Notes: generated from the sequence alone by a model not told the origin. Shown: positions 40,711-44,496, counted from the stretch's first letter. The stretch is DNA of 64,000 nt from Lachnospiraceae bacterium (GCA_021770245.1 JAETRI010000009.1:38884-102883); one strand, 5' to 3'. Numbers and translations are program-made.

Positions 40711-41032
40711 GATTTGCTTCCTCCTTGTATTGTGATTTGTGTATATGTAATTTGTTTACCTCGTTCATGATACGTTTTGCGGAGCCGTTCCCGCCCATCT
40801 TCTCATACGGCTTATAGAGATACTCATAGAGATTTTCGTATTCATCGGAAGTGATCCACCCCCGGTCAATATATGACATTCCCAAGTACATGATCCGGTC
40901 ATGCCCCAGACCTATCAGCATCTCAGTCTTTACGTCTTTTTTCTCTGCTCTTTTGGCGATATAAGCCCACAGCCCAGAAGACGCAAGAACTGAGCTAAAA
41001 ACTGTCAGCAGTATCTGCATCCAGCTATCCAT
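40697..41032 (-). CDS. Phage holin-like / minor membrane protein
   Basis: N-terminal TM; YLGMSYIDRGWITSDEYENLYEYLYKPYEKMGGNGSAKRIM. Confidence 0.7.
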   Translation of the reverse strand: MDSWMQILLTVFSSVLASSGLWAYIAKRAEKKDVKTEMLIGLGHDRIMYLGMSYIDRGWITSDEYENLYEYLYKPYEKMGGNGSAKRIMNEVNKLHIHKSQYKEEANHEDE

Positions 41033-42263
41033 CTACATTACCTCCTTCAGTTTTTTGTGGCAACTTATTAGTCACGACCATCTTTTTCTTGACAATCGTA
41101 ATGGCCTTGTCAAACAGTTCTTCGTACAGGCTAATCAAATTTTGTCGCTGTTGTCTCGACAATAATTTATAAAAGCTGCCCATCCAGCTGCGGAACATAT
41201 TCTCCACATGCTCATACAGGATTTCCCCGTTCTGGACTTTGACAGCCAGTTTTTTCAGTTTCCTCCTCATCGTGGTAACACGAGTTGGATTGATCCGCTT
41301 AATGATTTTGCCGTCTTTCGTAAGGCTGTAGCGAATCTGCAAATATTTGTAGGTGCTCGAAATCTTCACAATCCGGGTCTTTTTCATGTTAATATGAATG
41401 CCAAGCTCTTTTGCAATCGCACAAATGTTTTCCAGCAAATCCTGCAATTCTTCCTTGCTCGGGTTCATGATGTACCAGTCATCCATATACCGCCCGTAAA
41501 ACTTCTGCTGCCTGACGTACTTCACATAATTGTCGATACGGTACGGGTAATAGATGCCGATAATCTGAGACAGCTGATCACCAATATTGACAGACTTATA
41601 CATCCATTTCTCGCCCGTCAGCTGGTTCTTTGGAATCTCCCGATAGTCAAGCTTATTAAACGTATCTTCCATGCAGGACGCATATTCCTCATCCGACATA
41701 TAAGAAACATCAATCTTGAATCCATCAAATATAAGAGTGAGCAGCCAGTCAATGAATTCGTCATCGTCGAACAGCTTCAGCAGCTCCCTCTTTGCTATCT
41801 CATGTATGATATTGTCATAAAACTTGGAAAAATCCCCGAAAAGTATCCATCCCTCATTACCATGTAGCTTGTAGTAACGGCGGAGATGAACCTCGAAACG
41901 ATCCCTTTGATGCGAGATGCCTCTGTCCTTGATGGAAGCACCGTTGTCATAAATGATATGTTTACGGACTTCTGGAAGAAGAACTTCGTCGCATAAGACG
42001 TGCCGTACAATCCGGTCACGGATACGAATGCTCGTAATAGGCCTGACCCGGCCTCTTTCGGACAGCGAGAACTCCTCAGCCGGTCCATTTTGAAGTGTAC
42101 GGTTGAGAAGGTCATCCTGTATGGCAATAAGATACCGCAGGAAGTTTATCATGAACTTCTGGGTAGTCTCCTTCCATTTGCTGCCCTTAATCGAGGCCTT
42201 GTAAGCCTTATACAAGTTGTTAGCGTCACAGACTATCTCCTCATACGTCATAAGATTATTCAC
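41025..42263 (-). CDS. Diversity-generating retroelement reverse transcriptase (GTG start)
   Basis: RT motifs FGDFSKFYDNI, IGDQLSQIIGIYY (SQ instead of SP in motif 4, DGR-characteristic), RYMDDWYI; lies next to TR/VR. Confidence 0.95.
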   Translation of the reverse strand: MNNLMTYEEIVCDANNLYKAYKASIKGSKWKETTQKFMINFLRYLIAIQDDLLNRTLQNGPAEEFSLSERGRVRPITSIRIRDRIVRHVLCDEVLLPEVRKHIIYDNGASIKDRGISHQRDRFEVHLRRYYKLHGNEGWILFGDFSKFYDNIIHEIAKRELLKLFDDDEFIDWLLTLIFDGFKIDVSYMSDEEYASCMEDTFNKLDYREIPKNQLTGEKWMYKSVNIGDQLSQIIGIYYPYRIDNYVKYVRQQKFYGRYMDDWYIMNPSKEELQDLLENICAIAKELGIHINMKKTRIVKISSTYKYLQIRYSLTKDGKIIKRINPTRVTTMRRKLKKLAVKVQNGEILYEHVENMFRSWMGSFYKLLSRQQRQNLISLYEELFDKAITIVKKKMVVTNKLPQKTEGGNVDG

Positions 42264-42362
42264 CGTTATAGCAATACTTACCGTAGTAAATTGCGTCCGG
42301 CTTTGCTATTTATCCTTGATGGAAAGGACAACATCTCCTTCTCTGTTGGTTAGGCAGAGAAT

Positions 42363-42451
42363 CCGGACGAACCCCATTAGAGTTCGACGCGTTGTTGTAG
42401 TTCGTATTGCCATTGTTGTTCACATTAGCGAAATTCGTCCCAGAAACGACG
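42363..42451 (-). repeat. DGR template repeat (TR)
   Basis: 89 bp aligning without gaps to VR; coding-strand reading GTNFANVNNNGNTNYNNASNSNGVRP, dense in AAC/AAT codons; starts 5 bp after the avd-like stop. Confidence 0.96.
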
Positions 42452-42456
42452 CAAAA

Positions 42457-42951
42457 TTAGATGTTACCCTGCTGCACGTATGACTTGATTTTGTTGTCCC
42501 GCTGACGCCACTTCTTTATCAAACCGATTTCTCGGTCGATAGCTTTTACATACCTGCCATAAACATTCAGGTCCACCTCAAAGGTCTCCACAACACGCTG
42601 CAGTTCTTTGATGATCTGTTCGCAGTTCACGATAGCAGAAGACTGGTAGTCCCTCCGCGTTTCATATTCCCTCATGGTAGTCGGATAGATGCTGTTTACC
42701 GCTCTGACATTATTGGTCATAAGCGTTGCCAGATGATCTATTTCCTTCTTATGGGTCAACATCAGATAACGGTATTTCTCGAAATCCTCCGTATCATCCT
42801 TTCCATAAGCATAACGGAGCTGGACGAAATGCTCCAGGTCTTTCACCCCAAAGTTTCTCTGCATGAACTCCCGCAGCATGTTGTGTAATTCCGTTGAGTA
42901 CGTAATGGGCTCGAACTTTGACTCTGTCCGGTCACTTACCAGGACGCTCAT
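42457..42951 (-). CDS. avd: Avd-like DGR accessory protein (small helical)
   Basis: 164-aa all-helical, basic C-terminus (LIKKWRQRDNKIKSYVQQ), positioned between target gene and TR/RT as in canonical DGRs. Confidence 0.7.
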   Translation of the reverse strand: MSVLVSDRTESKFEPITYSTELHNMLREFMQRNFGVKDLEHFVQLRYAYGKDDTEDFEKYRYLMLTHKKEIDHLATLMTNNVRAVNSIYPTTMREYETRRDYQSSAIVNCEQIIKELQRVVETFEVDLNVYGRYVKAIDREIGLIKKWRQRDNKIKSYVQQGNI

Positions 42952-43091
42952 CAATACTCCTTACCAGTGATTTCCTGGAATTCCGCCTCGGTAATCCAGC
43001 CCATCTTTACGGCGTTACGGACGCGGGTCTCCTCCCACATCTTCATATCGTAGTAGCGCTTTACTTTCTGGTAATTCTTGCTATGTTCCAT
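42951..43091 (-). CDS. XkdX-family phage protein (46 aa, below ORF-track cutoff)
   Basis: MEHSKNYQKVKRYYDMKMWEETRVRNAVKMGWITEAEFQEITGKEY; stop overlaps avd start (TGATG). Confidence 0.85.
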   Translation of the reverse strand: MEHSKNYQKVKRYYDMKMWEETRVRNAVKMGWITEAEFQEITGKEY

Positions 43092-43122
43092 GGTGTTCCT
43101 CCTTCTTTCAATCTTCTTTCTC

Positions 43123-43431
43123 TTAGATCTCCACGCCGGCCATCATTGCGACATACTCGATGTCGGACTGCATTTTGATTTGTTTCAGTTCTGCGGCGGT
43201 AAGATCACGGAGAACAAACCAATACTCATCTCCAACAGGAGTAATCTGTACCAGTTCCATGTTCTCATGAAACTCGTCATTTTCGCCGTCATTGATTACG
43301 ACCTCAGAACAGTTGCCATCGAAAATTTCTGCGGCAACAGGCGCATCGGAAATGAAATTGTTTCCGTTGAGCCGCAAGTTCTTGATCTCTGTTCCGTCAG
43401 CAAGGGTTATCTTATAGATTTTCTCATCCAT
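43123..43431 (-). CDS. Small phage protein
   Basis: MDEKIYKITLADGTEIKNLRLNGNNFIS...; lies between VR gene and xkdX. Confidence 0.7.
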   Translation of the reverse strand: MDEKIYKITLADGTEIKNLRLNGNNFISDAPVAAEIFDGNCSEVVINDGENDEFHENMELVQITPVGDEYWFVLRDLTAAELKQIKMQSDIEYVAMMAGVEI

Positions 43432-43491
43432 TTCTATCGTTCCTTTCTTTTTTAACATATTTTTTAGTCACCTATATACGGTTTCAGACAA

Positions 43492-43508
43492 GGGGGCACA
43501 AGGCCCCC
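43492..43508 (-). other. Hairpin just downstream of VR (DGR cruciform/IMH-associated candidate)
   Basis: gggggc-acaag-gccccc, perfect 6-bp stem, 5-nt loop, within 10 nt after the target stop codon; no T-tract. Confidence 0.55.
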
Positions 43509-43515
43509 AGATTTC

Positions 43516-44496
43516 CTAACCCCTCAGACCGAAGACCGGACGAACCCCACGAGAGTCCGACGCGTTGCCGCAGGTCGAACGGCCATCGCCGCTCACACGA
43601 GCGAAATACGTCCCAGAAACGACGTCTCTCAACCACTGGTTCTGTCTTGCAGGATTGATGAATCTCGGATGTGCAGCCATGAGCGCAAGCTGAGTTTTGT
43701 CGATGGTATAACGGTTCGGCACGAAAGATCCGTCTCCTGCAGGAGTAAACACCAGGCTTCCATACATCATGATTTCATTCGGCAGCTCAACCTTGGAATC
43801 ATACCAGGCGCCTGCGGACGGATAGCCATTGCTCACAGCATTCGTCAAATACTCGCGATGATTCAGAACTGCAGTCTCGCCAAATGCGGCATACACCAGT
43901 GTCTTGGCATTTTCCAGATTCTCCGTGTACATCTTAGAGCCTACATAGCCGCCAGTCGTGATGTTCGTCTCATTCATCTTCGCTGTGTACAGCTGGGAAT
44001 CGGGCATAACTACCAGATGGTGGGTCGTGCAAGCCGTATCGCCGCTATTCCACCAGTAATCCATATCCACAATTCTCCAGACTCTGCCGCCGATCTCCCA
44101 GTAATCACCCAAGAAGAATCTCTTGAATGTGCCGTTGGCAATGTTGGTCTTCTGTTCGGAAGTCAGAGCCGCTCCCAGATTCTTGCCGCGGAACGTGTTC
44201 TTACGAACCTCCAAAGGGGCGCAGGCATCCAGAATAGCCCACAAAGCGTCATCCACTGTGATTCCCTTATTTCCTGCGGATGTGTTGATCATAATCTTGT
44301 CTGTCTTAGCGACTGCCGTGGACTGAGTCAAATCGGCCACATTCATCACCGTTAAGTAATCCTTGGCGTTTCCTGCCTCGGCCAGAGCTTTCAGCAAGTC
44401 CTTTGCCAAAATTGTCTTTGTGCCGCCAGCGCCGTCTACCAAAAGAACGTTATCCGCCGGCAGAGTTGAGACTAAAGCATAATCCGTAATTTTCAT
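43516..44496 (-). CDS. DGR variable protein (tail tip/adhesin, C-terminal lectin-like/FGE-like domain)
   Basis: 326 aa; C-terminus GTYFARVSGDGRSTCGNASDSRGVRPVFGLRG* is encoded by the VR. Confidence 0.92.
   Translation of the reverse strand: MKITDYALVSTLPADNVLLVDGAGGTKTILAKDLLKALAEAGNAKDYLTVMNVADLTQSTAVAKTDKIMINTSAGNKGITVDDALWAILDACAPLEVRKNTFRGKNLGAALTSEQKTNIANGTFKRFFLGDYWEIGGRVWRIVDMDYWWNSGDTACTTHHLVVMPDSQLYTAKMNETNITTGGYVGSKMYTENLENAKTLVYAAFGETAVLNHREYLTNAVSNGYPSAGAWYDSKVELPNEIMMYGSLVFTPAGDGSFVPNRYTIDKTQLALMAAHPRFINPARQNQWLRDVVSGTYFARVSGDGRSTCGNASDSRGVRPVFGLRG
43536..43624 (-). repeat. DGR variable repeat (VR)
   Basis: 17/89 differences from TR, all at template adenines (coding strand). 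Confidence 0.96.

Follow-up and report, generated by a model that had tools for sequence, protein, structure and literature searches.

How does the mutagenised cDNA of a diversity-generating retroelement (DGR) recognize the variable repeat (VR) that it rewrites, and not the template repeat (TR) from which it is copied? In BPP-1, the error-prone cDNA is RNA primed, and both a hairpin and the initiation of mutagenic homing (IMH) element, which follows VR and has long been known to be required, have roles in homing. How the cDNA finds and enters its target was stated to be unknown in a 2026 study (PMC12875486). Here we address the question with a locus in a 64,000-nucleotide stretch of a Lachnospiraceae bacterium (GCA_021770245.1, JAETRI010000009.1:38884-102883; hereafter the window, whose numbering is used throughout). 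The locus is a DGR of a large Lachnospiraceae-phage family, encoded on the minus strand and, as a DGR, ordinary in its cassette. Three features go beyond the first-pass annotation, which had been made from the sequence alone: a conserved RNA in the spacer between TR and the reverse transcriptase (RT) gene (42372-42258), a hairpin after VR (43508-43492), and complementarity between spacer and target. We propose, with a probability of roughly 0.75, that this is a functional-type DGR which diversifies a protein of the phage tail region at its C-terminus, and that a primer strand would pair with the target 3' of VR and thereby mark VR.

TR (42363-42451) contains 25 adenines and aligns without gaps to VR (43536-43624) over 89 bp. 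The 17 differences counted in the first pass, all at coding-strand A of TR, were recovered exactly on recomputation: 11 A>G, 4 A>C and 2 A>T, with none at the 64 non-A positions. The chance that all 17 would hit the 25 adenines is 1.4e-12 (hypergeometric), and the identity breaks off abruptly, exactly at the 89-bp ends. The identification as a DGR is supported: the locus has an RT and Avd (accessory variability determinant), its TR is intergenic, its VR is located 3'-terminally in a tail-region gene, and all mismatches are A-specific. Relatives of the RT were found at 40 loci in species genomes (mostly Lachnospiraceae and other gut Clostridia) and 47 in viral contigs; no close relative turned up among phage DNA records, and the nearest annotated phage RT, of Acutalibacter phage Fontainebleau, is 42% identical. 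VR lies ca. 1.17 kb before TR in nearly all relatives. A-specific variation of VR is seen across the family: many different VRs stand next to near-identical flanks in close relatives, and of the differences in 65 distinct TR/VR pairs of relatives 973 are at A and 18 at other positions, a count made with a scan score that favours A-difference pairs. In one relative, Hungatella hathewayi WAL-18680 (L044), the spacer ends inside its second stem, where it is joined directly to RT sequence beginning at about residue 239; this DGR thus has an RT deletion but has kept its TR.

A structured spacer RNA with a strand antisense to the target

The spacer between TR and RT, about 100 nt long, is noncoding yet strongly conserved among relatives. 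Consensus folding and covariation define a structured RNA domain with three hairpins (42258-42372, minus strand). Its predicted closing helix joins the 3' end of TR, GTTCG..CCG (42372-42364), to CGGTGAAT (42265-42258) at the RT start. Directly after TR comes hairpin 1, TTCTCTG-CCTAACCAA-CAGAGAA (42339-42361, minus), three pairs of which have changed on both sides; it is followed by a small hairpin and then by GCAATTTAC(TACG)GTAAGTATTGC (42271-42294, minus), a hairpin with a C(UACG)G tetraloop that is likewise backed by consensus fold and covariation. On 24 sequences and 27 pairs, 98.9% of the cells were paired. Double-change cells numbered 26 against 7.7 in shuffles (0 of 500 shuffles reached 26; slid structures gave 0 to 3), and the elements that carry them are the UACG hairpin and hairpin 1. 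Since the closing helix is nearly invariant, covariation gives no test of it. The spacer RNA had no match in Rfam. The putative primer strand, CTAACCAACAGAGAAGG (42337-42353, minus), takes in the loop of hairpin 1 together with its 3' strand, and it is antisense to the target flank.

On the target side, VR is followed by the hairpin GGGGGC-CTTGT-GCCCCC (43492-43508, minus), which is conserved in relatives: GGGGC-CTTGT-GCCCC or a variant of it was found in 55 of 57 distinct VR flanks. The CTTGT loop is kept even where the stem has been swapped to CCGCCC/GGGCGG (L071 and L072) or reads GGGGT/ACCCC (L073). In proteobacterial phage DGRs the corresponding hairpin has a GRNA tetraloop, and it is needed for efficient homing of BPP-1 (PMC3240598). 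Between VR and the hairpin, the target flank (43509-43535, minus) includes the stop codon and is antisense to spacer hairpin 1. Over this stretch the relatives share three conserved blocks, TCTTC, TTGGTTAG and AATC, which are antisense to the hairpin 1 parts GAAGGA, CTAACCAA and GGATT. The sequences after the repeat differ between VR and TR, which is a difference of the IMH type, and the spacer strand pairs in register with 9.6 of 14 positions of the VR flank and 2.7 of 14 of the TR flank.

The complementarity is well supported by sequence comparison across the family. In the window itself, the spacer/target duplex has a predicted stability of -22.3 kcal/mol, matched by 4 of 1,000 shuffles (0.4%) and ranking 16th among 75 distinct spacer/target pairs, 69 of which beat the 99th percentile of shuffled targets. 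When all registers were scanned, a single clear diagonal appeared (10.1 of 14 matches; mean 3.9, sd 1.2), with spacer nucleotides 13-28 antisense to a target stretch that starts at the first bases after CGTCCGG and therefore abuts the TR/VR end. In this register, the target would be complemented without a break by a hybrid of ...CTAACCAACAGAGAAGG and a cDNA that begins with CCGGACG. The putative priming nucleotide of this family is placed, by inference, within spacer nucleotides 26-29.

Both sides of the duplex also change together. Among 128 variable column pairs, those on the register rank 1, 3 and 7 by pairing excess, the top one being position 7, paired in 88% versus 54% expected. At position -2, the RT tree shows seven spacer changes and seven target changes, four of them on the same branch (0.39 expected; P = 1.2e-4), and the joint changes are always from C-G to T-A or the reverse. 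In the target, this position falls on the last base of the stop codon (TAG/TAA). One phage contig (L086) has two targets ca. 8 kb apart (4615-4703 and 12737-12822). TTGGTTAG and the CTTGT hairpin occur in each of them, though not in the same reading frame, and the second target is only weakly similar to the first. The metagenome loci were gathered with a pattern that contains TAACCAA, so the invariance of the loop proves nothing by itself; the covarying positions were free in that pattern.

The match in BPP-1 and some other DGRs

According to work of Handa in 2018 and Naorem in 2017, priming in BPP-1 reportedly involves A56 and G117. Before the BPP-1 sequence was examined, we predicted that a match to the spacer ending at A56 would be found in the IMH of VR and not in its TR counterpart, IMH*. 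Spacer 48-56, AGGTGGTCA, proved to be complementary at 9 of 9 positions to VR 118-126, TGACCACCT, ending at the reported A56, and TR (IMH*) contains no match of 6 nt or more. In the BPP-1 family, a spacer/target match of at least 7 nt is present in 85% of 39 loci (9% in shuffles). Across 34 of these loci, position 5 is paired in every VR (34/34) but in only about 7/34 TRs (21%), and at position 8 the paired share is 18% for VRs and 76% for TRs, a pattern that fits IMH* as a mismatched primer-template duplex and IMH as the exact complement. Within this family (L270-L327), the spacer site ends about +58 to +79 after TR, and the IMH* of TR keeps the mismatch at position 5. An internal spacer adenine has been reported to prime cDNA within IMH* (PMC12875486).

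In 18 further DGRs, own spacer/target pairs had longer matches than swapped ones (mean 5.9 versus 4.9 nt; permutation p 0.00025). Within the Fontainebleau family the matching word shifts with the lineage (GGGAAAG, GCCAAAAG or TATGAAG). Unequal spacer lengths kept an exploratory ungapped scan of this family from being decisive, and the per-locus swap test was used instead. The idea that every DGR has a long spacer/target match was rejected, as none was seen in Bacteroides LoVEphage, BalMu-1, VP58.5, ACA1, Taranis, ANMV-1, phPA-G or nd12.

A primer that would also guide the cDNA

By analogy with BPP-1, Avd-RT would make a copy of the TR RNA that is error-prone at A and primed by that same RNA, and VR would be rewritten by the resulting cDNA. 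We propose that the loop of hairpin 1 and its 3' strand provide the primer, that this primer strand stays attached to the cDNA, and that it pairs with the target over the stretch from the 3' end of VR to the target hairpin. The hybrid, as a single continuous complement, would dock on the target coding strand beside the hairpin with its RNA on the flank and its cDNA on VR. The IMH would then be a putative binding site for the primer RNA, whose pairing would mark VR, and not TR, for rewriting. Such docking would fit two points of an earlier study: targets are reportedly preferred when the strand complementary to them serves as lagging-strand template, and an Okazaki-fragment-like intermediate has been proposed (PMC12875486). 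For DGRs at large, we lean slightly towards the same rule, in which the target IMH may be the complement of an RNA primer kept on the cDNA and IMH* a weaker, mismatched primer-template duplex; one RNA strand would both start the cDNA and guide the hybrid to VR rather than TR, and the Lachnospiraceae phages would have extended it to a hairpin-loop guide. No mention of IMH-primer pairing was found in the open-access literature searched, a search outside which the key BPP-1 papers fall. If true, such a base-pairing rule would account for the need for the IMH, the choice of VR over TR for rewriting and the site at which the cDNA joins, and it would allow DGR targets to be predicted or reprogrammed.

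Several observations weigh against primer-guided homing. By duplex energy, own pairs in the family are just moderately better than swapped ones (-20.7 versus -18.3). At position 7, both sides changed on two branches of which only one ended paired, and the window's own target is without the central TTGGTT block. Moreover, 8 of 13 published phage DGRs outside the Fontainebleau family match over 4 to 5 nt only, which is chance level. This last point, that several published phage DGRs have no clear match, would also be expected if the DGR were ordinary and the match had no role in homing, the flank being kept for its C-terminal codons, stop codon and transcription end, and the match reflecting coincidence and shared ancestry. 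In most relatives the flank does encode a conserved protein end (I/V-G-stop). However, wobble positions and the last base of the stop codon covary with the spacer, the second target of L086 has the same motif in another frame, the BPP-1 match had been predicted before it was found where priming is reported and is retained across that family, and the swap test gave p 0.00025. We regard this explanation as improbable.

The pairing could also be real but act between RNAs, with the spacer RNA binding the target mRNA at its 3' end and regulating translation or RNA processing, or closing a long-range fold of a polycistronic transcript. A spacer complementary to the coding strand is equally complementary to the mRNA, and target and TR lie in tandem on one strand in the same operon. 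Such a role, which seems unlikely to us, does not call for the observed register, which lies right at the TR/VR boundary and the start of the cDNA and, in BPP-1, at the nucleotide reported to prime; a second target some 8 kb away has the match as well. Two findings favour a decayed and inactive DGR, carried by a defective prophage: in mid-stretch, the target flank of the window has GAGGGGTTAG where relatives have GTTGGTTAG, and the prophage runs off the contig. Against this, every open reading frame (ORF) is open, TR retains all 25 adenines, VR is without any non-A change, and the duplex with the spacer ranks 16th of 75, as given above. Decay thus has a low probability as well, and a functional-type DGR with a primer-marked VR is the reading that we prefer.

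Rewritten templates in relatives

The first-pass annotation expected a VR variable at A beside an invariant TR. The former agrees with the VRs of relatives, and the latter does not hold strictly in the family, in which some TRs have changed at adenines. Three of 122 TR contexts (L064, L174 and L046) have lost 13 to 18 of 22 core adenines and show no more than two other changes. Several further TRs have lost a few adenines near the 3' end, while the flanks are nearly identical. VR agrees with the changed TR in the partly changed cases, and in L046 and L064 it often disagrees. In close relatives TR adenines differ more often than the flanks. Measured against four-fold degenerate RT sites, the average adenine change is 4.5% versus 3.7%, and the four-fold rate is exceeded in bursts, L046 versus L156 (P = 9e-19) and the window versus L005 (P = 2e-5); L174 and L064 look like bursts too and lie outside this test. 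We therefore rejected a general erosion of templates by self-homing, since the average barely exceeds four-fold sites and bursts alone stand out, which indicates rare rewriting rather than steady erosion. The data do not separate VR-to-TR gene conversion from homing into TR as its source. Assembly chimeras are unlikely for the partial cases that are present in more than one assembly (L008/L009 and L146/L154), and they may account for the templates of L046, L174 and L064. In these three (TR at 5813-5901 in L046 and 5809-5890 in L064), most TR adenines are rewritten beside otherwise intact DGRs, so that the templates can hardly diversify further.

The cassette and its prophage

The minus-strand order given in the first pass (target, small ORF, xkdX-like, avd, TR, RT) was confirmed, and the individual gene assignments were supported by profile searches. 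The RT (412 aa, 41025-42263, minus) has the IGDQLSQ and YMDD motifs and matches PHROG 1423, "Reverse transcriptase" (5.5e-63). It scores far under the cut-offs of the curated group II intron model (49.6 bits, cut-off 300) and retron model (18.4 bits, cut-off 235), in keeping with the DGR type originally assigned to it. By sequence, the closest solved RT is chain 8ub7_A (328 aa, "Reverse transcriptase"), which we take to be the BPP-1 bRT. The avd-like gene (42457-42951, minus) matches PHROG 3206, "Avd protein of DGR" (1.7e-9), and the xkdX-like ORF between target and avd (42951-43091, minus) matches PF09693 (2.8e-19). A further small phage ORF of 111 aa (43123-43458, minus) had no family match.

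The diversified target gene (43516-44496, minus) codes for 326 aa. Its structure model (pLDDT 79.6, poor in the VR part) resembles predicted phage receptor-binding and DUF6273 proteins; a structure search gave no PDB match and hence no support for a C-type lectin fold, which is a likely candidate by analogy. The protein ends in GLRG before the stop (43516-43535), an ending with which the central TTGGTT block of the flank has been lost, and relatives end in G-V/L-V/I-G. A search of the entire assembly (4.28 Mb in 237 contigs) with TR, its adenines masked, gave one TR and one VR, hence a single target.

The prophage is truncated, as the window ends where the contig ends, with the cut falling after the terminase gene, and its completeness consequently cannot be judged. 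Its tail/lysis end adjoins host genes for CotH kinase, a VTC domain protein and a DUF4956/MgtC-like protein, which lie in a row (35116-38982) and directly precede the first phage ORF (39016). Outside the prophage there is a group II intron (1471-3194), with Rfam D1-D4 domains at 1471-1764 and its own RT/maturase ORF at 1788-3194 (TIGR04416, 404 bits).

Comparison with known DGRs

The BPP-1 DGR (mtd, avd, TR, brt) resembles that of the window in its order of target, avd, TR and RT, its A-specific TR/VR differences, the hairpin after VR and, in the primer RNA (putative in the window), complementarity to the target just beyond the start of the cDNA. The two RTs are 23% identical. Unlike in BPP-1, XkdX and another ORF sit between target and avd in the window. 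The pairing here involves a hairpin loop and 3' strand over at least 15 nt with mismatches, in contrast to 7-9 nt in BPP-1, and the target hairpin has the 5-nt loop CTTGT instead of the 4-nt GRNA (PMC3240598). The Acutalibacter phage Fontainebleau DGR shares the tail/lysis position and has a lineage-variable primer/target match of 6-8 nt, but its spacer is longer before the primer site and its target and hairpin are different. In the Lachnospiraceae prophage DGRs of genome and viral collections (for example L005, L006, L019, L024 and L027), layout, spacer RNA and target hairpin are all as in the window, whereas VR contents differ at A positions and some of the TRs are without certain adenines.

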